DNA of 43,177 bases, taken from positions 1 through 43,177 of the IMG/VR virus record IMGVR_UViG_3300037452_000041. The stretch is one strand, 5' to 3'. Below, one piece after another: positions 3,818-36,346 of the stretch; positions within the stretch are counted from its first letter, which is position 1; every line of letters starts with the position of its first letter. This stretch comes from a virus. The position numbers and the translations under genes were made by a program. The notes beneath the pieces were generated by a model. That model did not search any database. It saw nothing but the letters and a program-made list of their open reading frames with translations, and was not told the DNA's origin.

Positions 3818-4099
3818 ATGTCGCGCGGTCACGGAAAGACGCAACGTGCAATTTTGGCCTGGCTAGCCCGCACCGGAGATATGAGCCTGCCCTATTTGGC
3901 CGGCTGTATTCATCAGACGCCCCAGGATGAATTATCGGTTCGGCAGCTAAAGAACATGCGGGATTCTCTGACCTTGCTAGTCCGTGAAGGAACCGTGTCA
4001 CACGGCGCCATTGACCCGTACGGCCGAGAAACGTGGAGGCTCTCTGGAAATGTCCGCAAGCGGCCGGCACGACCGCGGCGGCCGCGTCTGATCGAGTAG
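3818..4099 (+). CDS. Small winged-helix-like DNA-binding protein
   Basis: This is a 93-residue basic protein. The pattern GKTQRAILAWLART, then SLPYLAG, then LSVRQLKNMRDSLTLLVREGTV and a beta-strand WRL resembles a winged helix-turn-helix. The C-terminus is arginine/proline rich. The start at 3818 is preferred over ATG 3812 because the AGGA motif is then 6 bases away rather than abutting. It stands alone on the plus strand, divergent from the 3727 operon across the TAAGACCG array and convergent with the replication gene. It is the obvious candidate to bind those boxes, though this is inference. Confidence 0.65.
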   Translation: MSRGHGKTQRAILAWLARTGDMSLPYLAGCIHQTPQDELSVRQLKNMRDSLTLLVREGTVSHGAIDPYGRETWRLSGNVRKRPARPRRPRLIE

Positions 4100-4111
4100 C
4101 GCACGGCGCGT

Positions 4112-5029
4112 TCATGCCGCCGCGTTTCCCCAGCCGCCGGCCATTCGTCGTCGCGCCTCGTCGCGCTCGGCTTGTTCGCAGGCGAGCACCATGTCGCGGG
4201 TGAGCGGGCGCGCTCGGGCGCGCTTGTCGAGAAAGTCGAAAGCGCGCTTATCCTCGGCGTCGCGCTCGTCCCAGCGATCAAGCGCGGTTTCCGCCCGGCT
4301 CAACATCAACAGCCGGTGGATCTGCTCGTCTTTGTCGAGCACCCCGGCACAGCGAACCCAACGGCCGAGGGTCTTGATCAGGTTCGCGCGCTTCGCCCTG
4401 ACTTCGGCCGGCGACGGTCGCGCCGAGAGCGCGCAGCGCTGAGAAACCCCTTGCTCGTTTTTTGCGTGGTTTACTAAAGAGGAATCTGGTTCTCTCTCTT
4501 TCTCTTTCTCTGCGGCTGCGCAACTCGCTGAAATGGCTTGGGTTTTCGCGTCGGGAACATCGGGAACGCGTTCCGGGAACGCGGGAACACCTTCGGGAAC
4601 GCTTGCAGGTGTTCCCGCGATCGGTAGCAAGAGCTCGCCTTGCCGCTCGCGCTCGCGGTGTTTGCGGGTCCGCGGCGTTGACACCTTGCGGGCGATCTTG
4701 TTGACGTTGGCGGCGATCATGCCGACCGCGGCCGAGCCCTGGCGCTTCGCCCAATTGGCGATGGTGTCGCCGGCGAGGCGGCCAAACTTGCGCAAGCTGG
4801 CGATGATGCGCTCGACGGCCTCCGGTGCGATCCGCAGCCACGCGGCCCACACCCGCGGGTCGAAACCGGTGATCGAGCCCGTATCGGGCGCGTGCTCGGT
4901 TGTCCAGGTTAAGAGCTCGACAAAGGTTGCGCCGACGAGGCCGGGCGAGGTGCCGGCATCATCGGCGACCGCAAGCCACAGCGGGTCGGTTAGCGCATTC
5001 GGATAAAGCTTGCACCAGCGCTCGGCCAT
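4112..5029 (-). CDS. Putative replication initiator (O/DnaD-like)
   Basis: This is a 305-residue protein. The N-terminal 100 residues (WCKLYPNALTDPLWLAVA, then LLTWTTEHAPDTGSI, then IIASLRKFGRLA) look like the winged-helix N-domain of phage replisome organisers. A basic patch (TRKHRERERQ) and a low-complexity proline/valine linker (about 145-170) follow, then a charged helical C-domain. GAGG lies just upstream of ATG 5029. The linker-coding DNA holds direct repeats next to a pyrimidine tract, as in lambda O where the origin lies inside the gene. It would be read leftward from the promoter element near 5265. Family assignment is by resemblance only. Confidence 0.6.
   Translation of the reverse strand: MAERWCKLYPNALTDPLWLAVADDAGTSPGLVGATFVELLTWTTEHAPDTGSITGFDPRVWAAWLRIAPEAVERIIASLRKFGRLAGDTIANWAKRQGSAAVGMIAANVNKIARKVSTPRTRKHRERERQGELLLPIAGTPASVPEGVPAFPERVPDVPDAKTQAISASCAAAEKEKEREPDSSLVNHAKNEQGVSQRCALSARPSPAEVRAKRANLIKTLGRWVRCAGVLDKDEQIHRLLMLSRAETALDRWDERDAEDKRAFDFLDKRARARPLTRDMVLACEQAERDEARRRMAGGWGNAAA
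4490..4511. other. Pyrimidine tract beside iterons
   Basis: Twenty-two consecutive C/T bases on the plus strand, next to a locally AT-rich stretch (about 4455-4490) in otherwise GC-rich DNA. Strand-asymmetric, easily melted sequence next to iterons is what lambdoid origins show. It lies within the putative initiator gene and is proposed as the unwinding side of the origin. Confidence 0.45.
4552..4617. repeat. Iteron cluster, candidate replication origin
   Basis: CGGGAAC(A/G) occurs in direct orientation at 4552, 4561, 4574, 4582 and 4594, and inverted at 4610-4617. The third copy is also part of a near-palindrome GCGTTCCGGGAACGC (4568-4582). The repeats encode the VP-rich linker of the putative initiator, so protein repeat and DNA repeat cannot be fully separated. 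The adjoining pyrimidine tract and the location inside a replication gene favour an origin. Confidence 0.5.
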
Positions 5030-13700: not shown

Positions 13701-14741
13701 ATGATCACAAAAATTCGCGGCATCAAGCAAACGACAATCAACGGCCGCCGGTACTGCTACCACCGGGCGACGAAAAAGCGAATCCAGGCTCGCCCCAACA
13801 CCCCGGCTTTCATCCTCGAGATTGCCGAGCTCGACAAAGAGGCTGGCACGATGCCGCGGCGCGCGATCGTCCGCCGCCGGCCGCACGGGTCCGGTACGTG
13901 GGGTGCGCTCGTCGAGGCCTACCGGGCAAGCGCCAAATATACGTTGCTCGGCGAGCGGACAAAGAGCGATTACGAAAAGGTGTTGGCCTATCTCGCGACG
14001 CTCGACAACTTTGCGCTTATCCAATTCGACCCCGAGGCGTGCGAGAAAATCCGCGACAAGGCATTGCAGGATAAAAAACGGCGCTTTGCGAATTATGTCG
14101 TGCACATGCTGTCGCTGGTGCTCGGGTGGGGTAAGACCCGGCGCGAATTCGGGCATTATGAGAACGGCGCCGCCGGCCTCGAAAAGTTCGCGGCACCGGG
14201 CGACGCAAATCGTCCTTGGGGCGAGGATGAGTGCCGCATCGTGCTCGCCGAGGCGAAAGGCACGCTAAGGGCGGCGATTGCCCTCGGCATGTTCGCGAGC
14301 ATGCGCGGCGGCGACGTCGTGTGCGTGCGCTGGTCGGCTTACACCGGCACCGCGATCGGCTGGCAACAAAACAAAACCGCCGATCAGGTGTGGAAACCGG
14401 CGCGGCGCATGCTGCGCGAGATCCTCGACGCGGCGCCCCGTATCGGTGAGACAATCATCGCCGGGCCCGATGGCCGCCCTTGGGCAGAGGGTACGTTGCG
14501 GGCAAATTTCCGCGATCTGATCCGCCGGCTTGAAGGTGAGGGCAGGATCGCGAAAGGGCTCACGTTTCACGGGTTGCGCTCGACCAACGCGACGCGGCTC
14601 GCCGATGCCGGCGCCGACGTCCGCGCGATTCAGGCCGAGCTCGGGCAGCGCACGGCGGCGATGGCGTTGCATTACAGCCGCCGGGCAGACATGCGGCGGG
14701 CCGCCGAAACGGCGGTGCGCCTGCTCGACGACGAGGCTTGA
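13701..14741 (+). CDS. int: Tyrosine integrase
   Basis: This is a 346-residue protein. Catalytic residues visible: Arg202 (SMRGGD), Lys225 (QQNKT), His290 and Arg293 (FHGLRST), and Tyr325 (LHYSR). The position normally held by a second His/Trp (LGH) is Gln316 (LGQR). The N-terminus is basic, probably the arm-binding domain, followed by a SAM-like core-binding domain (65-160). GGGAG precedes ATG 13701. It would integrate and excise the genome together with the excisionase upstream. Confidence 0.9.
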   Translation: MITKIRGIKQTTINGRRYCYHRATKKRIQARPNTPAFILEIAELDKEAGTMPRRAIVRRRPHGSGTWGALVEAYRASAKYTLLGERTKSDYEKVLAYLATLDNFALIQFDPEACEKIRDKALQDKKRRFANYVVHMLSLVLGWGKTRREFGHYENGAAGLEKFAAPGDANRPWGEDECRIVLAEAKGTLRAAIALGMFASMRGGDVVCVRWSAYTGTAIGWQQNKTADQVWKPARRMLREILDAAPRIGETIIAGPDGRPWAEGTLRANFRDLIRRLEGEGRIAKGLTFHGLRSTNATRLADAGADVRAIQAELGQRTAAMALHYSRRADMRRAAETAVRLLDDEA

Positions 14742-21085: not shown

Positions 21086-22228
21086 TCACCGTCCGGTGGC
21101 GTTGAAACGCTCGACATGCTCGACGAGAACGGGCGTTTGCTGCAACGCGACCGGCTCGGGGCTGAAAGCCTCGACCGGCATCATTGTAACCTTCGCGTGC
21201 TGGCCGTTCTCGTCGCGCAAATACTGTACCGAGGCGATCAGCCACGACGCATCGGGCAATTTGATCGCCGGGAAGCGGATCGGGGCGAGGTGGTTTGGCG
21301 CCCACAGCTGGCGCCGGGCGTCGCGCCAGGCGTCCGCGGTGATCTGCACCGCTTGGCTTCGCCCATAGCGCCGGTTGCGCTCCCAAACCGCCCGGTCGTG
21401 CGCGAGGAACTGCCCCATATGCGATTGTTCGCTGATGATGTAGCGGCGGCGAAAGCGCTTAACCCCCTCGTCGCGCACAATCTGCCCCTGGCGGGTGGCG
21501 CCGGTGCCGGTGTCGTTGCCAAAGACCCCGGTCGACAGCAAGTGCCCTTCATATTCCGAATAGCGCTGGTCGGCCGAGAACGTTACCGCGGCGAACTCGG
21601 CGTTTTCACCCTGTGCAAAGCCTGACGCCATCTTTTCGCTGCCGGCTTGCGCCATCACCACGCTGCCGTCGGGCAGATCGTAGGCGACCAGCTTGGAAAA
21701 CCGGGTGATCCGGTCGATTATCTCCCACGCGGTTTCGCCCAAATTGACATTGAACTGCGGAATGTCGGCGCCGGGCCCTGAAACCGAGGAAATCTCGACG
21801 TCGTAGGGCTTGGCGATCTGTTGGGCGATGCTAAGGGCGGTGCCGCCCTTGATCTGGAACGAGGGCGCATCGGGCGAGCCGACAAACGCCGCGCAGTCGA
21901 CCAAATCGGCCGACTTCGACCGCCCGGCAATGCGCACCGTGTGGTCGCCGGCGCTAATCTGCGAGGTGTATTGGTCAATGTAGCCGGTAATCACCAGGTC
22001 GCCGCCGATCTTGACCTGGCACGCGTCGCCCGGCACCACCGCAATGTCGGCCGTCCGCGGGTATTTCTCGGTGACTTGCACGGCGAACGCCGCCGGTACG
22101 GTGTCCATTGACCGGGTGACCGAGACGCGTTGCCAGCCCGCCCACGACCGCCCGCCGATGATGAGGGCGAGCTCGTCCTCGGCGCCGACCGGTTGCCCGC
22201 GCGTAACAGGCGCGCCAAAGCCGACCAT
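21086..22228 (-). CDS. Mu gp44-like baseplate hub protein
   Basis: This is a 380-residue protein. DELALIIGGRSWAGWQRVSVTRSMD at the start, GYIDQYTSQISAGDHTVRIAGRS, and TAWEIIDRITRFSKLVAYDLPDG match the gp44 / tail protein D (hub) family. It precedes the spike gene as in Mu. Its start overlaps the methyltransferase stop by one base (22228), so the enzyme gene is truly inside the operon. Confidence 0.85.
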   Translation of the reverse strand: MVGFGAPVTRGQPVGAEDELALIIGGRSWAGWQRVSVTRSMDTVPAAFAVQVTEKYPRTADIAVVPGDACQVKIGGDLVITGYIDQYTSQISAGDHTVRIAGRSKSADLVDCAAFVGSPDAPSFQIKGGTALSIAQQIAKPYDVEISSVSGPGADIPQFNVNLGETAWEIIDRITRFSKLVAYDLPDGSVVMAQAGSEKMASGFAQGENAEFAAVTFSADQRYSEYEGHLLSTGVFGNDTGTGATRQGQIVRDEGVKRFRRRYIISEQSHMGQFLAHDRAVWERNRRYGRSQAVQITADAWRDARRQLWAPNHLAPIRFPAIKLPDASWLIASVQYLRDENGQHAKVTMMPVEAFSPEPVALQQTPVLVEHVERFNATGR

Positions 22229-23409
22229 CAGTCGGCCGCCAGCTGCACCAGCAAGGGCGCGTCGCCGCGCACCCGCCCCTCGGCCATTGCCGCGTAATCC
22301 GCCGATAGCTCGATACCGATGCAGTCGCGGCCGAGGCGGTCGGCGACCAGCGCGGTTGTGCCGGATCCGAGGAAGGGGTCAAGCACTGTTGCGGGGATCG
22401 GCGCCTCGGCGGCACAGCGGCAGGTCGCGCGCCAGCCGAGGGTTTCGGCGGAAGGCTCACCAAAATTCCTTGCGGGACCGCGTGGCGCTGACTGCGGATA
22501 CGCGTATGCGGAACCCGTATAAACCAAAGCATCGGCTCTTTGGCCGTCATAATCGGTTATCTTCCTAAGCAACCGCGCCCACGGTGCGCCGCACTGCGCG
22601 CACACCCCGCGCTCGCTGGTGCCGGCGAGGATTGCGCGCCGCGGCACCTCGGGCGGGAACGTCGCGAAATGCGCTTCGGGAAAAGGTGCCGGGCCGAGCA
22701 GCCACCAGTTGCGCATGTTGCGCCGCTCGACAATCGCACGAAAAGCGGGTTGATCAGTGTTCGCGTGTTTTGCGTTGGCACTAAATCCGCCCTTTGGCAC
22801 CGAATAACCATTTTTTGCGCTGTCTTCGCTCGCATCTTCCTTGACCGCCTCGGCGTCGTAAAAGTAACGGGCGCTCTTCGTCAGCAGAAACACCTTCTCG
22901 GTGGCACTGGTCGGCCGGTCGGTGACGGACTCGGGCATCGGTGCCCGCTTCGCCCAAGTGATTTCAGATCGCAACCACCAGCCGTCATCGCGCAGCGCGA
23001 ACGCGAGCATCCACGGTATGCCGATCAGGTCTTTTGGTTTGAGGCCGGGCAACGGCATGCGGTTCGGTTGCGTTGTCCGCCCCTGCCAGGCTACACGCAT
23101 GTCACCGCCGGCAATGTTCGCCTTGCCGGCGCCGGTCGCGTAGCTGTCGCCGATATTGAGCCACAGCGTGCCGTCGCGGCGCAGCACCCGGCGCACCTCG
23201 CGGAATATCTCGACCAGGTGCGCGATGTAGAGCGCCGGCGCCGGCTCGAGGCCGAGCGCCCCCGCCCACCCGTCAGGCCACACTTGCGGCGGGATTTTGT
23301 AGTCGCGCAGCCCCCAATAGGGCGGCGAGGTGACCACGCAATGCACGCTGTTGTCAGGCAGATCGCGCAGCCGGTCGAGCACATGGCCGCGCATTATCCG
23401 CGTGGTCAT
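22228..23409 (-). CDS. DNA methyltransferase (beta-class N4/N6)
   Basis: This is a 393-residue protein. TSPPYW (27-32) comes first and DPFLGSGTT (344-352, the SAM-binding FxGxG) last, which is the beta-class order. The SPPY motif indicates amino methylation of cytosine N4 or adenine N6. A CxxC ... CxC set (Cys270, 273, 330, 332) probably binds zinc. The start at 23409 overlaps the upstream stop as ATGA. No restriction enzyme is nearby, so it is an orphan enzyme likely protecting phage DNA. Its position between circularization N and gp44 genes is unusual. Confidence 0.8.
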   Translation of the reverse strand: MTTRIMRGHVLDRLRDLPDNSVHCVVTSPPYWGLRDYKIPPQVWPDGWAGALGLEPAPALYIAHLVEIFREVRRVLRRDGTLWLNIGDSYATGAGKANIAGGDMRVAWQGRTTQPNRMPLPGLKPKDLIGIPWMLAFALRDDGWWLRSEITWAKRAPMPESVTDRPTSATEKVFLLTKSARYFYDAEAVKEDASEDSAKNGYSVPKGGFSANAKHANTDQPAFRAIVERRNMRNWWLLGPAPFPEAHFATFPPEVPRRAILAGTSERGVCAQCGAPWARLLRKITDYDGQRADALVYTGSAYAYPQSAPRGPARNFGEPSAETLGWRATCRCAAEAPIPATVLDPFLGSGTTALVADRLGRDCIGIELSADYAAMAEGRVRGDAPLLVQLAAD

Positions 23410-23966
23410 CGCGACAGCGCCGGGAACGCCACCGGCAGCCACAGCGGGTGCCGCGGGGCGGCCGAGGCGACGAGCTCGGGTTCGCGCGTGGTGTCGCCAT
23501 AGAGGGCCCACGCCTGCGCGAGCGAGGGTTGCGGCACGTAGGTTTGCACCTCGACCAGCGTTGCGAGATAGGCGCCGCGTATCGCCAGGTCATAGGCGAC
23601 CGCGGTGCGCAGATCGCGCAACGCCTGATAGGTCGCGTCGTTGCCCTGGTCGGCGTTGCGGATTGCCTCGGCGTCGAGGGCGCCGACCACCGCCAGGCGC
23701 AGCGATTGCGCATCCTGGTAAGACCGCGGCTGATAGAGGGCGGTCGCCCGCGCCAGCGCCGCGCAGGCGTCGCACCGCAGTTTCGCCGCCAGCGCGGCTT
23801 GCGCCAGGCGGATCGCCGCCGACAGCGGGCCCGTTCCGGGCAGGCGCGGCGGCACGTAAGAGCACAGCGGGAACAGTAGCCGTATCGCGTCGGCCGGGTC
23901 GCTGGTCGAGGCCAAAACCGCGGCCGCGAGGCGTTCCGAGGCCGCGGCGAAGTCGGGCACCGCCAT
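23406..23966 (-). CDS. DNA circularization protein, C-terminal half
   Basis: This is a 186-residue protein. SDPADAIRLLFPLCSYVP, ALARATALYQPRSYQDAQSLRLAVVGALD, then PSLAQAWALYGDTTREPELV and HPLWLP match what I recall as the C-terminal part of Mu N (gp43)-type proteins. These are usually one polypeptide of about 450-490 residues. Here the N-terminal half is a separate gene in another frame, 82 bp upstream. There is no strong ribosome site before ATG 23966. Baseplate or DNA-circularization role by family. Confidence 0.65.
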   Translation of the reverse strand: MAVPDFAAASERLAAAVLASTSDPADAIRLLFPLCSYVPPRLPGTGPLSAAIRLAQAALAAKLRCDACAALARATALYQPRSYQDAQSLRLAVVGALDAEAIRNADQGNDATYQALRDLRTAVAYDLAIRGAYLATLVEVQTYVPQPSLAQAWALYGDTTREPELVASAAPRHPLWLPVAFPALSR

Positions 23967-27901: not shown

Positions 27902-29377
27902 TCACGATTTACGGAATTGCAAAAGAATCGCGATCTGCCGCAGTTGATTTACAAGGTCGACCGGCGCGAGGATTTTCACCAATCCTCGCCCGGCGTTCTC
28001 GACCACGACGTCGCGCGCGAAGTTCTGCGCGTTCTGCACATGCCCGGTGTTCTCGAGCACGCGATATTCGGCGACGGTCGAGGCGCGGATCATCAGCGCG
28101 TTGACAGTGTTCGCGCCGGGCATGATTGGCGTTTGATCGCTCACCAACTTTTTGCGGGCGTATTTACTAATCAAGTGGCGGGCGAGATCGCGCGCCACAT
28201 ACATTAGCCCGTACATGGTTTCGACATCTAAATAGCTGTCGTCCTCGGTGCCGCTTAGGTTTTTCTGGTAAGTCGTCGCCATCCTTTCGACGATGACTTG
28301 CCCGTCGTCGTTGATGCGATAGCTCGACAGCCCCGAGTAGAGCAGCGTGTTGCGCTCGCCGATCGACCACCGGCTTTCGGTCGGCGGCCCCTTTAGGAAG
28401 GTGCCGATGTATTGCAGCGGCAAGCCAGGGTCGACCCGGAGCGAGGCCGCGGCCCGCGCGCCCATCTCGGCCGCCCATATCCAAGGCGGGTCGGGCGAAC
28501 CGTCGTAGGGCATGATCGACATATGTTGGTCATTGCGGCCGAGGCCGAAATTGACGCACTGCGAAAAGCTGCCGCGGTAGGCAGAGAACGCCCCGCCATA
28601 GAGCATTTGCTCCCACGACCATCGGCCGGTCGCATCGTCGAGGAACACCCGCAAGGCATTGAGGTTCGGGGTGTCGGTGTAGGGCGTGATGATGAAATCA
28701 AAATTCTGGTCGGACAGGTTCGCCAGTCCGTCGGCAATGATCGGGCTGGCAGTGCCGCCGGTCGGCTGCACAATCGTTATCGTCGGGCCCGCGGGCGTCC
28801 ATTCGCCGCCGCCGGCGCCGTAGTAATTGAGGCGCACGTCGATCTGATTGCCGTGCAAGCCGGCGTTCTTCGCGGTTAGCGTAATGACGCCCGCGAGCCT
28901 GGTGGCGGTGACCGGCAAGTCAAGATTGGCGTCGAGGGCGGCTTGCAGCCGCGTGGCAATCGCGACCGCGGTGTCGCCCTCCATGATCGCCGAGCGCACC
29001 AGCTGCCCGGCGACGTAGAGGTTGAGCGTGCCGTTGCTTTGCGCCACAGCGCCGGCGATTGTGAGCGTGCCCGAGGCCGCATTCCCGGCCGCCGCATCTT
29101 CAAATGGCAAAATCCACAGATCGCCGAATGTGTCGGTGCCGCGGTAGCGCTCGGCCATTGCGCCGAGCAGCGACCCGCGGCCGCATGCATCCCAAATCTG
29201 CGCCCGGCTCGATACCTGTATCGGGCGCAACGGGTCGGCCGCGCCGTCGTCGGTGATTTGGCCGAGCACAATCGAGCGCTGAAACGTCGTCGCCGTGTTG
29301 GCTTGCGACGGGTCCATTTCGACATAGACGCCAGGAACCCGGTTGCTTTCAGGGTAGAACGTGAAATTGATCGCCAT
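27902..29377 (-). CDS. Tail sheath protein (Mu gp39/L-like)
   Basis: This is a 491-residue protein. FTFYPESNRVPGVYVEMD at the start, NFDFIITPYTDTPNLNALRVFLDD in the middle, the LASDP-like region YIGTFLKGPPTESRWS, and the C-terminal VNQLRQIAILLQFRKS match Mu L. It makes the tail contractile. Its start shares one base with the DUF2635 stop. Confidence 0.9.
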   Translation of the reverse strand: MAINFTFYPESNRVPGVYVEMDPSQANTATTFQRSIVLGQITDDGAADPLRPIQVSSRAQIWDACGRGSLLGAMAERYRGTDTFGDLWILPFEDAAAGNAASGTLTIAGAVAQSNGTLNLYVAGQLVRSAIMEGDTAVAIATRLQAALDANLDLPVTATRLAGVITLTAKNAGLHGNQIDVRLNYYGAGGGEWTPAGPTITIVQPTGGTASPIIADGLANLSDQNFDFIITPYTDTPNLNALRVFLDDATGRWSWEQMLYGGAFSAYRGSFSQCVNFGLGRNDQHMSIMPYDGSPDPPWIWAAEMGARAAASLRVDPGLPLQYIGTFLKGPPTESRWSIGERNTLLYSGLSSYRINDDGQVIVERMATTYQKNLSGTEDDSYLDVETMYGLMYVARDLARHLISKYARKKLVSDQTPIMPGANTVNALMIRASTVAEYRVLENTGHVQNAQNFARDVVVENAGRGLVKILAPVDLVNQLRQIAILLQFRKS

Positions 29378-29613
29378 TACTCGGGCCCTCCGCGGCGCCC
29401 GTGCACCACTGGCCGCGCCGCGTCGGCGTGCGCGTGAGTTGGCAGGTGTTCCGCTGGCTTCGGTGCCGGCGCCTCGACCCGCACCACGTCGCCGTCGCGC
29501 AGCCGGCGCCGCCAGTATTGATTATCGGGCACGTCGGCGCCATCGAGGTCGAGCATGGTGAGCGTGCCCTCATAGGGGATTTTCACGTCGGGCTTAGTTG
29601 GTTTCACTCTCAT
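29377..29613 (-). CDS. DUF2635 / Mu gp38-like protein
   Basis: This is a 78-residue protein. [20 protein letters not shown], then [20 protein letters not shown] is the DUF2635 pattern seen just before the sheath gene in Mu-like phages. The tail after residue 50 is histidine/alanine rich. Role unknown in the family. In this phage it is separated from the gp37-like domain by a fibre gene. Confidence 0.8.
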
Positions 29614-31409
29614 GATATCGGCCCCATGTCGCTGATCGTGATCTGTGAGCGCAAGTTATTGCCGGCGCCTGCCATTGTGATGAAATTAGCCGGCGGTGTG
29701 AGCGGGTCGACGGTCGCGAGCTCGACCAAAATTAACGGATTGGCGGGAACGTCGAGGATAAAGGAAACTGTTGCCCCGCAAGCCGGCGTCGCGGCGCCCT
29801 GTTTGTAGATGAAAACCTGGCGTTGGAAATTGCCGGGGCTGATGCGTACGCCGCCGATTGCCAATGTCGTGCCGCCAATGTCTTGAATGTTGAGCGACAC
29901 CACGACCAGGATGCGCGACAGCCCGCCGCGGGTTAGTGCCGTATAGGTGCCCTGCCAATATTGCCCCCACGCCGCATTAGGCAGGGTCGTAAACGACCCC
30001 GGCTCGATAACAAGTGTGGCCGCGCGGCTGTCGAGCTCGTCGGTTAGGATGCGGTTGCGCAGCCCCGTCGAATTGTGCTCGGTGTAAATGTTATTCGTGC
30101 CGGCCGGGCGGCGCAGTGTCAAACCGGGATTGGCGCCTGTTCTGTAATCATAGATGACAATGCCGAGACCGTTCGGCCCGAGAGGGTCACGGAAAATAAC
30201 AGCGCTGCCCTCTGCGAGAAACAGCGAGGCGTCCATGTCATTCTGCCCGCCGACCCTAAGATAGCGGGCGTCGCCGAGCGCCTGGTCGATCACTGGCCGC
30301 GAATTGCTGCCGTCGTTGTCGGTGATGATCAGCGGATTGTTGCCCTGCCCTTTGGTTATGACCAGCGCATTAGCCGGCTCGCTCCACTGGATTCGTGCCA
30401 ACCGCACGCCAAAGTGCACCGCGGCGTCAACTTGCGGCCCGGTGGTGCCGATCATGTAAATATCGCCGGTCATCTGCCCGCCGTCGCGGCGCAGAAAAGC
30501 CGAGGTGTCGACTGCCGGCGGAATATCGGCCAAGCGCGCGGCATCGCTGGCGAGGGTCGGCACCCCGAGCGAGGTGATTTTGCGATTGCCCATATTGATA
30601 TCAGCCCCGGCGAACAGCGCCACCGGCGACAGAGTCCACAACAGCGCACCGCCCGCGCTCATCTGAATCATGTTGCCGCCCGACGGCACCAGAAACCCGG
30701 TGTTGTTCTCGCCGATCATCAGCCCCGGCACGTTGCCGGCGCCGCTGCCGACACAGAAAAGCGGCCCGGCCATCAGGCCAAAGTCGCGGCGCACATAGTC
30801 GGCGTCGAGCACCTCGGGCGGTGTCGCCGGGCCCTCGGGCCCTGGCGGTCCCGGCGGCCCAAGGTCGCCCCGCTCGCCCTCGTCGCCTTTCTCGCCGTCG
30901 GCACCCGGCGGCCCCTCGTCGCCTTGCAAGCCGGGCGGCCCTGGCGGGCCAATGTCGCCGCGCTCGCCCGGCGGGCCAGGATCGCCTTGCGGTCCTGGCG
31001 GGCCCTCGGGCCCCGGCGGCCCTTCGGGCCCTTCCTCGCCGCCGCCGCCCCCACCGCCCCCGTGCGCGTCCGCGTAGCGTTTGGTTGCCGCCTCGTCGTC
31101 ATTGACCGGGTCGCGCCACAGCCCGAGCGGCCCGACCATGTTGTCGCCGGTGCGCTGCACGGCGCGCGCGGCCGATATCGAGGCGTCGTTTGCCGACTGC
31201 GCCGCGGCTTGTGCGGCGAGCACCGCGGCGTTGGCCGCCGTCTCGGCCGCCGCCGCTGCCGCCGCCGCCTGCTCGGCGATCGTGCGCACCTGTGAAATGA
31301 GGCTCTGCAGGTCCAAGATTTCATCGCGAGCGGCTTGGAAGTTGTTGCGCACCTCACTGGTGCGCGCGAAGCGCTCGGGCGGGTATGACGGGTCAATGGC
31401 GCTAGGCAT
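29610..31409 (-). CDS. Collagen-like tail fibre
   Basis: This is a 599-residue protein. The N-terminal MPSAID...[16 protein letters not shown] module (1-36) is followed by an alanine-rich coiled coil (40-86), a glycine run (117-124) and about 23 Gly-X-Y triplets (127-195, [15 protein letters not shown] and similar). The beta-rich distal part includes DNMVGPLGL and [11 protein letters not shown] units, the short shaft repeats of phage fibres. It overlaps the upstream small gene. Its position between terminator and DUF2635 genes is not the Mu layout, so it looks inserted. Confidence 0.8.
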
Positions 31410-31638
31410 TGCTAGGCGGCTCTATGTAATCCCAGACGGTGCGGGCGTTATCCCAAACCGTCGGGCTGTTGGGGTTATCCCACACGGTCGGCGGCTGCAA
31501 ATTGGCGATGACCATACGGATTGCCGGGTCGGGGTGGCGCACCACCGGGGCGAGGTGAATATTCAACTGGATCTCTTGCAGATCCTCGGCGGGCCAAAGC
31601 CAGGTATCGCCGAGGTTTTCGGCGCCGTTATCCGGCAC
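31402..31638 (-). CDS. Small protein with tandem TVWDN repeats
   Basis: This is a 78-residue protein from GTG 31638, overlapping the end of the terminator fusion gene. Residues 1-48 ([20 protein letters not shown]) look like a small tail or fibre adapter. The end has three WD units (PTVWDN, PTVWDN, RTVWDY). The same kind of ending occurs in the gp48-like protein at 18203-18859, and both are followed by an MPSAID gene. Any longer reading would run antiparallel in frame through the terminator domain. Confidence 0.6.
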
Positions 31639-34033
31639 TGAACAGCTGCCAATCCAAGGCGAATTCCCACTGGTAGAACAGCCGCGCCCGGTTGAAGTCG
31701 AGCATGCGCCCGCCCGCCAGGTAGAACCCCTGATGGTTCGGCACCCGACCGGTGCCGGGCCCGCCGATCGCCGCCTGCGGTTGCCATAGCAACAATGCCC
31801 GGCAAAGCTGTTCCTGTATCTCGTCGTAGCGCATCGCCGGCGCCTGGCCGCGGCGATCGGCGACGGCGAATTCGACCACCACGCCAAAGGTGCGGGTCAC
31901 GATTTGCTCGAGGCCGACCATCACCAGGTTGCCGTTGGCTTCCTGGTCGAGCGGCAGCACGTAGCCCGCCGGCAGCGGCATCGTCGCATTGTCCGATTGA
32001 AGCGCTGTCACGTAGTCGGCGGCGCCGGCGATGCGCCCGCCGAGGGCGGGCACGGTGCGGCGCAAGTGTTCGATGGTCGCCGACAGCAGGCTCGACAGAT
32101 TGACCCGCACCGGCAGGCGCCCGACCGCGTCGAATGTCTGCGGGAACGCAATGAAGTGCATCGCGAGCGGGCGCGCATAGACCCGTGCGGCCAGCCGCCC
32201 GGTGGCGGCCAGCGGGTGCGCTACCGCGTCGAGGGCGAGCCCCGTCGGCCGCGCGACGATGCGCACCCCGAGCTCGGCCGCCAGGTGCAGCGGGAACGCC
32301 GCCGGGTCGAGGGCGAGGATAGGTGCTGCGGTGCCGAATATCTGCGCCGGCAGATCGCCGCGGGCGATGACCGGCGGGAACGTCGCCGGGTCGAGGGCGA
32401 CAATCGGAAACGCGCCCGAGAACACGTGCACCGGCAAGTCGCCGCGTACCGGCGCCACCGGGTGCACCGCGGCGTCGAGGGCGAGGGCGGTCGGCCGAGC
32501 GAAGACGCGCGCGGCGAGCATGCCCGAGGCGTGCACCGGCGCGTGCACGACCGGGGCGAGGTCGACCGCAACCGGTGCGGTCGGCGCCTCAACTTCAAAC
32601 GCCACCGCCAGGTGCACGATGCCGGTGCCGGGATAGCGGTTGCCTTGCTCGGTCGATATCGCATAGGCGCCGGCTGGAACCGCGCGGTTGCTGTCGAATA
32701 TTGCAGGCCGCCCCCACGGTCCCGGATTCGATCCCGGCGTAAAGCCGCCGGCGACGATGCGTAGCACGCATGAATCGTCTGCGGGCGCGGGCGGCGGTTC
32801 GGTAGGCGGGTCGGTGTTCTGATCGGTATAAAGAAATACCCAGCAAGGGCTGGTCGGGTCAATTTCAGTAGTGAAAGGCGCGTCTTGCGCATAGGGGAAA
32901 AAGTTCTGACGCCATGCGTTGATGCCGGTCAGCCGCGCGCCTCGGTAATCGGCGGCGGCGGCGGCGATAAAACTTTGCAGCGGCCCGCATTGTATTTCAA
33001 TTTGTCGAGTGCCGGGCAGCGGGTTTTCGAGATAATAAATATATCCCCACCGTTCATGTTCGGTAACTTCCGGCGGCCAGTCTTCGGGCGGCATTGTAAT
33101 CTTTGCCGCGAGCGACAGGTCTTGACTGCCCCACCGTACCCAAAGAACATCATCTACTGCCGGCAAGGGCTGCGAGGGTCGCGCCGGCAGTTGCGGCAGC
33201 GCCCCCGAAGTAAAGCCCCGCACCGGGTCGCCGACAAAGGCGACAAACAACAGATTGCTGCCGGCGCCGAGGGTGTAGGACGCCCGCAAGACCGGCGAAA
33301 TAAAATTGTTGTGCCCGAGATCGGCAGCGCGGTTGAACCCTGGCGCGGGTGGTGTGGAGTCAGCCGGCGCGAAGGCAATGGCAAGATGCAATATCCCCGG
33401 ATAGTTTTCGCCGGGCGGATCGCGATATGTGGTGAATTGGTAATCGCCAGCCGGGACGCCTGCTCCGCTATCGAAAAATGAAGGCGAGCCCCATTGCTCG
33501 CCGTGAGTCCGCGGCCCAACTACGCCAGGCCCAGCGCGCGCGACATCCTCGTCATACCCCGACTCCAGAAGCACAACCCAGCTGTTCGGCCGAATAACGT
33601 CAATCGTCGTGGTTAATTCTGTTGAGCCTTGAAGGGCGACATTCCTAATTACAGAAATATCCTCGGCTGTGGCACCGGAATAATCCATTGCCAACACTGC
33701 GAGGTAATGATTGCCCTCACATTCGGTAATTACATCATGAGTACCGGCAGGCGGATCGACCAATCCGTAAAGGTATAGGCATCGTTGATTATCTTCGATC
33801 TGCGGCACATATTTCGCCACCTCGATTAGCGCATAACCGCCATAGGTGACGCTGGTAATGTCGTCAACCGGCGGAAAGGCGCCCTCTACGGCGACGAATA
33901 TGGCATTGCTACCGGCCCCCAATGTATGAGGTGCTGTGTGTATCGCGCGCGGCCCAATGATCGGAGGGTCGGCGGCGATAAACGACAAGCCGTTGTTGCC
34001 GAGATCTGTGGCGTTGCCAAACGCGATCGGCAT
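31628..34033 (-). CDS. Tail terminator (gp37-like) fused to duplicated adhesin-like domains
   Basis: This is an 801-residue single frame. Residues 4-222 and 234-480 are two copies of a beta-rich domain (shared TLGAGSN, FVAV/FVAF, a VDD(I/V) stretch, a Gly-rich strand, YPG...HLA(I/V)AF). Residues about 500-645 hold five or six degenerate 25-30 residue repeats (GxLxARVFARP, ALDxxxHP). The last 155 residues (SSLLSATIEHLRRTVPALGG, then EQIVTRTFGVVVEF and NHQGFYLAGGRMLDFNRARLFYQWEF) match Mu gp37 / DUF1834-type terminators. Terminators are normally about 150-190 residues, so the fusion is odd. Confidence 0.75.
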   Translation of the reverse strand: MPIAFGNATDLGNNGLSFIAADPPIIGPRAIHTAPHTLGAGSNAIFVAVEGAFPPVDDITSVTYGGYALIEVAKYVPQIEDNQRCLYLYGLVDPPAGTHDVITECEGNHYLAVLAMDYSGATAEDISVIRNVALQGSTELTTTIDVIRPNSWVVLLESGYDEDVARAGPGVVGPRTHGEQWGSPSFFDSGAGVPAGDYQFTTYRDPPGENYPGILHLAIAFAPADSTPPAPGFNRAADLGHNNFISPVLRASYTLGAGSNLLFVAFVGDPVRGFTSGALPQLPARPSQPLPAVDDVLWVRWGSQDLSLAAKITMPPEDWPPEVTEHERWGYIYYLENPLPGTRQIEIQCGPLQSFIAAAAADYRGARLTGINAWRQNFFPYAQDAPFTTEIDPTSPCWVFLYTDQNTDPPTEPPPAPADDSCVLRIVAGGFTPGSNPGPWGRPAIFDSNRAVPAGAYAISTEQGNRYPGTGIVHLAVAFEVEAPTAPVAVDLAPVVHAPVHASGMLAARVFARPTALALDAAVHPVAPVRGDLPVHVFSGAFPIVALDPATFPPVIARGDLPAQIFGTAAPILALDPAAFPLHLAAELGVRIVARPTGLALDAVAHPLAATGRLAARVYARPLAMHFIAFPQTFDAVGRLPVRVNLSSLLSATIEHLRRTVPALGGRIAGAADYVTALQSDNATMPLPAGYVLPLDQEANGNLVMVGLEQIVTRTFGVVVEFAVADRRGQAPAMRYDEIQEQLCRALLLWQPQAAIGGPGTGRVPNHQGFYLAGGRMLDFNRARLFYQWEFALDWQLFSAG

Positions 34034-34034
34034 A

Positions 34035-34526
34035 TCAGCCGGTGGTCGTTACCGTGAAAGTCTGCGCGCCGATATCGGCCGAGGTGAGCTCGCGGGCGAG
34101 CACCAGATCGTCGCCCGCCATCTCGACCAGGTCGGCGGGTGCCGCGACGAGCCCGCCCGAATAATCCGACCCGTCCGACATCACCACCGCGACCGCGGCG
34201 ACATGCTGCCCGGCCGGCGCGTTGTCGGGCAACGATACGCTCGGCGGGTCGAATTCGACTGCCTCGGGCACCGGCACGATTTCGACAAGGAGATCCTGCG
34301 AAACCTGTATGCCGTCTTGCTCGGCGGTGACCGTCCAAGTGTCCTCGCCGCCGTCGGCTGGCACCAGGTCGCGGGCGAGCACCAGGTTGTTGCCGGCGAT
34401 CCGCACGACACTCGCCGGCTCGGCGTCGAGGTCGCCGACAAAGGTGCTGCCGTCCGACATGCTCACGCTCACCGCGGCGATGACTGTGCCGGCTTGTAAA
34501 TTGTCAGGTAGGGTTGCGTCGGCCAT
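34035..34526 (-). CDS. Two-domain Ig/cadherin-like protein
   Basis: This is a 163-residue protein made of two copies of one about 80-residue unit: MSDGS.F.GDL, P..VV.IAGNNLVLARDL, ADGGEDTWTVTA versus MSDGS.YSGGL, P..LVEMAGDDLVLAREL, ADIGAQTFTVTT. Such Ig-like repeats are common as surface decorations on virions. It ends 1 bp before the terminator fusion gene and may add further surface domains to it. Confidence 0.7.
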   Translation of the reverse strand: MADATLPDNLQAGTVIAAVSVSMSDGSTFVGDLDAEPASVVRIAGNNLVLARDLVPADGGEDTWTVTAEQDGIQVSQDLLVEIVPVPEAVEFDPPSVSLPDNAPAGQHVAAVAVVMSDGSDYSGGLVAAPADLVEMAGDDLVLARELTSADIGAQTFTVTTTG

Positions 34527-35066
34527 TCACTTGGTTTCCCGCCATTTGAGCCCTTGATCGAGGGCGAGGCGCACCCGCTTTTCCAATTCCGGCGCCTGCT
34601 CGGCCATGACGCGCGACAGAAACGGCCGCGCCAGCAACACGCGGGCGGCATAGGCGCCACGTCGACGAGCTCGGGCCCGCCGCGCATGCGCGGCGGTGCG
34701 GCCATGCGGGTTGCCGCCACCGCGGGCGCCCGCCTCGAGGAACAGCCCATAGAACGCGCGGGCGCGCACCGCGAACCCCTCGCCCGATTTGAACGGCTTG
34801 GCCGCGATCGACGCGGCGAGCGTGCCCGAGACTGATACCGGTGCGGCACCCGGTGCGCTCGCCCGATAGGCGCCGCGCCGATAGGCACCGCGATAGGCCG
34901 ACCCGCCGCCCCCCGAATAGAGGCGCCCGCCGCCGCCCTTGCGGGCGATTGCCTTGCGGGTCGCGGTGCGCACGGTGCCCGCGGCCGAGCGCATCAGGTT
35001 GCGCAGTTCGCGCTTGTCGAGTTCGACCGTGCCCCACGACGAGATAGTCAGGCGCAATGCGGTCAA
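34527..35066 (-). CDS. HK97 gp10-like tail completion protein
   Basis: This is a 179-residue protein. ELRNLMRSAAGTVRTATRKAIARKG at the start, SVSGTLAASIAAKPFKSGEGFAVRARAFYGLFLEAG, and RPFLSRVMAEQAPELEKRVR at the end fit HK97 gp10 / virion morphogenesis proteins at the head-tail junction. A glycine/tyrosine/arginine insertion (about 44-70) is unusual. It overlaps the joining-protein gene by four bases. Confidence 0.75.
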   Translation of the reverse strand: MTALRLTISSWGTVELDKRELRNLMRSAAGTVRTATRKAIARKGGGGRLYSGGGGSAYRGAYRRGAYRASAPGAAPVSVSGTLAASIAAKPFKSGEGFAVRARAFYGLFLEAGARGGGNPHGRTAAHARRARARRRGAYAARVLLARPFLSRVMAEQAPELEKRVRLALDQGLKWRETK

Positions 35067-36157: not shown

Positions 36158-36346
36158 TCAGTAAACCAGGTGGTAGTAACCAAAGCGCCCGCCAAGCAAT
36201 GCCACGATGACCACCACTATCAGAATGATAACGAGGATGCCGCCGACACCGTAGGGCCCGCCTTGCTGGTAGTAACCGCCGCGGTAATAGCCGAAACCGC
36301 CGCCAAACAGCAGCACCAGCAAGATAATGATCAGGATCAGGTCCAT
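36158..36346 (-). CDS. DUF3309-like two-helix membrane protein
   Basis: This is a 62-residue protein with two hydrophobic helices (LILIIILLVLLFGGG and GGILVIILIVVVIVALLGG) flanking a glycine/tyrosine linker (YYRGGYYQQGGPYG). This is the pattern of small DUF3309 proteins of proteobacteria. It is tightly embedded between head genes, where a membrane protein is unexpected. It may act in host membrane attachment, exclusion or as a second holin-like protein. Confidence 0.7.
   Translation of the reverse strand: MDLILIIILLVLLFGGGFGYYRGGYYQQGGPYGVGGILVIILIVVVIVALLGGRFGYYHLVY

Follow-up and report, generated by a model that had tools for sequence, protein, structure and literature searches.

In the virus record analysed here, a stretch of 43,177 bases referred to below as the window, a tail terminator probably uses its N-terminus as a mount for a surface appendage, encoded by a mobile and modular neck-arm cassette that would serve adhesion. 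At the level of sequence, display domains and a repeat stalk are fused in one frame to a terminator, the block that carries them behaves as an insertion, the stalk is reused on a second terminator family, and the display domain is exchanged between phages. A wider reading, to which we give even chances, holds that an Ig-like protein, a swappable adhesin and a stalk make up a horizontally mobile cassette, which can join the N-terminus of any terminator and provide otherwise unrelated phages with a second attachment organ at the neck.

The genes of a contractile tail (those for sheath, tube and tape measure, then further tail genes) are accompanied in the window by an HK97-like head region. On the minus strand, the order is terminase, portal, protease, capsid (named by reading their translations), connector, head closure and gp10/neck1, followed by the two-Ig protein, the 801-residue protein, a collagen-like fibre, DUF2635, sheath and tube. 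The features discussed below are the following:

34527-35066, minus strand: Neck1/HK97-gp10-like protein, which borders the cassette on its upstream side (phrog_5 'tail completion or Neck1 protein', E 6e-7)
32091-34526, minus strand: cassette of 2436 bp, comprising the Ig gene, the display domains and the stalk and bounded by the gp10 stop and terminator residue ~649
34035-34526, minus strand: two-Ig-like-domain protein of 163 aa, a cassette member that travels with the stalk and display parts
31628-34033, minus strand: fused gene of 801 aa, a single open frame with display domains, repeat stalk and tail terminator
33371-34021, minus strand: display domain 1, a beta-sandwich, residues ~5-221 (duplication, model strands, phrog_553 match)
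32597-33337, minus strand: display domain 2, residues ~233-479, a diverged copy of domain 1
32099-32572, minus strand: stalk, residues 488-645, six repeats of 26-28 residues and a partial one (self-alignment)
31631-32098, minus strand: tail terminator domain, residues 646-801 (PF23840, E 5.5e-14, and fold matches)
29610-31409, minus strand: collagen-like tail fibre gene, directly downstream and outside the cassette (Collagen, E 5e-10)
27902-29377, minus strand: contractile tail sheath (phrog_165, E 1e-157)

Elsewhere in the window, a phage integrase gene (13701-14741, plus strand; PF00589, E 5.6e-10) suggests that the phage is probably temperate. An N6/N4 DNA methylase gene (22228-23511, minus strand; PF01555, E 8e-38) lies in the tail operon between gpP-like and gpN-like genes, and beside it, on the strand opposite to the operon, is a tRNA-Ala (CGC) (23783-23853, plus strand). 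The head module also encodes a 62-residue hydrophobic, Gly/Tyr-rich peptide (36158-36346, minus strand; MDLxIIIILLVLLFGGG..YYRGGY..QQGGPYG). It recurs between sheath and tube in L007 (3667-3855), L008 (4245-4433) and L010 (8594-8782), phages otherwise unrelated to that of the window, and its location there is a different one.

The single 801-residue frame of the original prediction is confirmed and can be assigned to the minus strand, where it runs from an ATG at 34033 to a stop at 31628. That prediction had also raised the possibility of a sequencing error joining two genes. Such an error would fit the organisation of L004-type phages, where display part and stalk are encoded by two genes (a TGA, then an ATG after 1-3 nt). 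However, the same open frame is found in two further assemblies: L003, from another contig, differs from the window at 1 base in 2403, and L002 (~98% identity) carries 78 substitutions, distributed 12/7/59 by codon position. For L002, dN and dS are 0.011 and 0.099 over the whole frame, and 0.038 and 0.131 over the stalk alone, a pattern indicating that purifying selection acts on the fused frame, junction included. Moreover, L026 also has stalk and terminator fused, and so do L004, L007, L008 and L010, although their terminator is a different one. Since L002 and L003 keep the frame, with mostly third-position changes, the fusion is not an assembly artefact, and the chance that an error joined two genes is, in our estimation, negligible once the survey of terminator loci is also taken into account. 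Long genuine N-terminal extensions occur in 4 of ~80 loci surveyed, their types being that of the window, that of L026 and that of L055. The long extensions of L022-L025 were rejected because they represent gp10 read out of frame, the peptide matching an out-of-frame ORF at window 34504-35037; those of L061, L071, L094 and L096 are probably out-of-frame gp10 too.

The C-terminal domain is recognised as a terminator by both profile and fold. The PF23840 Phage_tail_terminator profile scores 52.7 bits over residues 651-796, against a cut-off of 27, and an AlphaFold2 model built from 61 rows reaches a pLDDT >70 for most of residues 646-797. This model displays the terminator fold (an N-terminal helix, then a beta-sheet, a further helix and C-terminal strands), and all of its probability-1.00 PDB matches in Foldseek are tail terminators or collar/cap equivalents; the fold matches include DT57C, Milano, T5 p142, the monocin cap, the R-pyocin collar/cap, Mu and lambda gpU. 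The doubt expressed at the outset, that a predicted structure might reveal something other than a terminator in the last 155 residues, is thereby removed. As for the gp37/DUF1834 type proposed initially, the terminator assignment stands and the family does not: the DUF1834/Mu gp37 Pfam model gives no match at E<=1, so the resemblance to Mu gp37 (TM 0.51) is one of fold only, and the Pfam family is PF23840. The gene occupies the position between neck1/gp10 and DUF2635-sheath, and the SfV terminator lies directly before gp38-like and sheath genes. PF23840 members are usually small and stand-alone, whereas 645 residues precede the domain here. Of note, phrog_209, labelled 'portal protein', matches the PF23840-type terminators of the window, L005, L006, L017, L026 and L055, and this label is probably wrong.

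The two beta-rich copies and the five or six repeats of 25-30 residues described from the sequence alone are both borne out, with the repeats now delimited. Residues 1-230 and 231-490 share 31% identity (BLASTP E 1e-26), with a local score of 234 compared with 36 +/- 6 (maximum 62) in 500 shuffles. The same 61-row AlphaFold2 approach yields, with moderate confidence, a beta-sandwich for the display domain. The minor tail protein family phrog_553 matches residues 4-123 (E 8.4e-6, partial coverage only) and the display copy of L004 (E 7.2e-8), and the display-domain matches among predicted viral structures (BFVD) are mycobacteriophage minor tail proteins; among the BFVD matches listed, no single target covers both the display and terminator parts. 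Searches that included Pfam recognised no ligand-binding family in the display domains. In the stalk, repeat units start at residues 506, 533, 561, 588, 614 and 640, with the partial unit at 488, and the self-alignment score is 100 compared with 35 +/- 6 (maximum 59) in 200 shuffles. The repeats are Pro-rich; single-chain models gave no confident stalk structure (pLDDT ~23), and this model of very low confidence contains no notable helix. The stalk of L026 is homologous, with 47% identity over residues 487-800, terminator included, as are those of L004 (34%) and L017 (44%).

Six arms of ~645 residues apiece would make for a bulky ring, and one may ask whether all rings bear them. The terminator might be freed by proteolysis or by an internal start, so that some or no rings would carry arms and the N-terminal part would be a by-product or act elsewhere; an internal ATG is indeed present at codon 625. 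However, reading by eye revealed no Shine-Dalgarno-like sequence before the in-frame starts between codons 560 and 690 (ATG, GTG or TTG), for which reason an internal start was rejected, and the corresponding stretch of L026 is devoid of Met. We regard a freed terminator as very unlikely, and favour an intact fusion in which the terminator bears the appendage.

Comparison with close relatives delimits the cassette. L022-L025 possess a plain terminator, 83-85% identical to that of the window. Their DNA is 94-98% identical to the window up to 34527, the end of gp10, and the similarity resumes at 83-87% from 32090; across the intervening block, nothing is alignable. Between the window and L024, protein identity is 94-98% for the sheath, DUF2635 and the connector. 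The block may be either a gain in the window lineage or a loss in L022-L025, because the more distant L026 has gp10, the Ig gene, and the stalk with its terminator but no display domain. The Ig gene accompanies the stalk or display parts in L004, L008, L010, L017 and L026, and is missing from L022 and L024. In two other records, the region in front of the terminator contains further genes: L125 (IMGVR_UViG_3300050821_003437) has at ~3910-5001 a frame resembling, on reading its sequence, a cytosine methyltransferase, located in the space that separates gp10 from the beginning of the Ig gene, and Komagataeibacter phage phiKM1 has a transposase and a KilA-N gene just before the terminator. The slot between gp10 and the terminator looks like an insertion hotspot.

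The neighbouring genes had been viewed as a surface-display cluster, of which the two-Ig gene does belong to the cassette. The collagen-like fibre is independent of it, since relatives without the cassette have this fibre too (66% identity in L024). This distribution bears on another possible role of the arms, namely that of whiskers holding or retracting other fibres, such as the adjacent collagen-like one, as T4 fibritin does with the long tail fibres. The fibre gene directly follows the fused gene, and its L017 counterpart is 51% identical over residues 310-598, which would suit such a partnership. However, cassette-less relatives keep the fibre and that of L004 matches weakly (33%), making a whisker function quite unlikely compared with arms that themselves carry adhesive domains.

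The same cassette is found in front of a second type of terminator. L004, L007, L008 and L010 are phages of a build different from that of the window; L004 has a capsid-E head, and the capsid gene of L010 is evidently homologous. In all four, a display gene is followed by one for a 349-residue protein, which combines repeats with another kind of C-terminal domain and whose frame runs up to the sheath gene. This domain folds as lambda gpU (Foldseek E 2.9e-6, TM 0.65-0.75). Profile comparison detected no similarity between the L004-type gpU-like terminator and PF23840, nor any homology of the PF23840 and gpU-type terminators, so that the likeness is one of fold. Two unrelated terminator genes are thus preceded, at their 5' end, by the same block, and each is in frame with its stalk. 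Between L004 and the window, the display gene is 84% identical, compared with ~40% for the sheath and ~34% for the tube, which indicates that the cassette moves independently; the Ig genes of L004, L008 and L010 are 65-66% identical to that of the window. Sister phages L104-L109 carry the L004-type terminator alone, without stalk, and this protein begins with MPPARRSLG, the first residues of the Ig gene in cassette carriers such as L004.

The display part of the cassette varies between phages. In the capsid-E group, it constitutes a gene of its own that ends in one shared repeat (...LDPATFPRVEISSR, followed by the stop), 1-3 nt before the stalk gene, and it encodes two domains in L004 (as in L017) and a single one in L007 and in L008; L010 has an unrelated domain of ~190 residues instead. 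In L026, the stalk and terminator come without any display domain. An independent parallel is provided by L055, where a PF23840 terminator bears a fused 249-residue array of unrelated repeats; the gene immediately preceding it is tail-fibre-like. In L017, the display part is 85% identical to that of the window and the cassette follows a stand-alone, plain PF23840 terminator; the stalk is a separate 193-aa protein without terminator. The fusion of stalk and terminator is therefore not essential, or was lost in L017. The unfused stalk protein of L017 (7497-8078) ends in GPEGRIEARFRLDN..., like the C-terminal tail of the L004 terminator (GPDGRIEVHGHFERP...), and may be a former stalk-terminator fusion minus its terminator. 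The display/stalk stop-start junctions (L004 7606-7613, L007 1070-1076, L010 5995-6003, L017 7495-7499) have varied spacers, consisting of an overlap or of 1, 2 or 3 nt, and in L010 the two parts are in frame with an intervening stop; this variation suggests repeated gene splitting or fusion at the joint.

These exchanges are relevant to the question of whether the arms are structural, wrapping or clamping the head-tail joint and strengthening it, as proposed for the XM1 collar spikes and the Milano collar, rather than binding outside targets. The cassette contains an Ig gene and two beta domains; in phage XM1, the Ig-like domain of gp40 binds the neck and the terminator and reinforces the joint (PMC10457771), and the collar protein of Milano contains a pair of jelly-roll domains (PMC10491603). 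However, one would expect a clamp to be conserved along with its neck, yet near-identical phages lack the whole cassette, and phages that keep the stalk have the display part replaced, reduced by half or absent. We consider a purely reinforcing role unlikely. Adhesion is favoured over reinforcement because the display part varies while the stalk and the Ig protein stay, and this is the strongest argument for it.

We infer a hexamer with outward stalks and adhesive display domains. According to this proposal, the cassette would insert just upstream of a terminator gene, the stalk becoming fused in frame to the resident terminator, and its display domain could then be exchanged. Six copies would assemble into the customary terminator ring that caps the tail tube and sheath. 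With a stalk of repeats and a pair of adhesin-like beta-sandwich domains on each copy, up to six arms would surround the neck like a crown. The neighbouring Ig-like protein would be a co-travelling neck component, helping there as the Ig-like domain of XM1 gp40 does. The likeliest use would be a secondary attachment to host surface glycans or to the surrounding matrix, raising the chance of infection. The strongest argument for a neck location is that two sequence-unrelated terminators are both fusion partners of the same stalk. This finding, together with the L055 parallel, gives strong independent support to the idea of arms near the neck put forward in the original prediction, while L017 indicates that stalk and terminator need not be fused. 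In phage 7-7-1, residues 10-12 of the terminator are in contact with the tail tube (PMC12796354), and arms attached to this end would have to find a way outward past the sheath.

Few phages are known to have neck appendages, which as a rule are proteins in their own right. In the present case, the appendage seems to be mounted on the terminator ring itself, with a module that recurs on two terminator families and bears different display domains. Among sequenced genomes, the whole protein had no match and the terminator profile hit only 8 loci; the nearest is a stand-alone terminator in an Acetobacteraceae MAG. Phage records matched significantly in the terminator part only, PDB sequence searches returned nothing meaningful, and a plasmid search returned no match. 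A search in a collection of openly available papers found no N-terminally extended terminator carrying an appendage. If the proposal is correct, the neck offers a natural site where extra domains are tolerated, neck appendages could be spotted in metagenomes by a sequence signature, and phages would have a second route, independent of tail fibres, to evolve binding to the host or matrix.

With regard to known systems, the display domain resembles mycobacteriophage minor tail proteins (phrog_553; for example those of Tourach and MrMiyagi) in fold and by a weak sequence match, but these are separate tail proteins without terminator fusion. The last 155 residues share the family (PF23840), the fold and the position before DUF2635 and sheath with SfV orf9, Mu gp37 and Milano gp18, which are small and stand-alone, whereas the window protein has 645 residues ahead of the domain. 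Similarly, lambda gpU has the fold of the L004-type terminator, but it is a stand-alone siphophage protein while the L004-type terminator is fused to a stalk. Neck structures proper include the Milano collar (PMC10491603) and the collar spike gp40 of Vibrio phage XM1, which is attached at the neck, touches the terminator ring and has a proposed host-sensing role (PMC10457771). XM1, like the phage of the window, is contractile-tailed, and it has an Ig-like domain and an appendage at the neck, where those of the window phage would also lie; gp40 differs in its separate gene, non-covalent attachment and coiled-coil plus tailspike architecture. The third case is the neck passage structure (NPS) of lactococcal 936 phages, and none of the three is fused to a terminator. 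In the 936 group, the NPS has a conserved anchor (first ~180 residues) and exchangeable binding domains, namely carbohydrate-binding modules (CBMs), and is present in ~2/3 of members; one neck CBM has been shown to bind host cells (PMC6669499). Pfam, PHROG, NCBIfam and PDB-sequence searches gave no match pointing to a relation with NPS or BppA-type CBM. The NPS is a separate protein with its conserved part N-terminal, in a siphophage of a Gram-positive host, whereas the terminator anchor of the window protein is C-terminal and its phage contractile-tailed. By function, the NPS is nevertheless the closest counterpart, both systems combining, putatively in our case, a large neck appendage with a conserved anchor and exchangeable binding domains.
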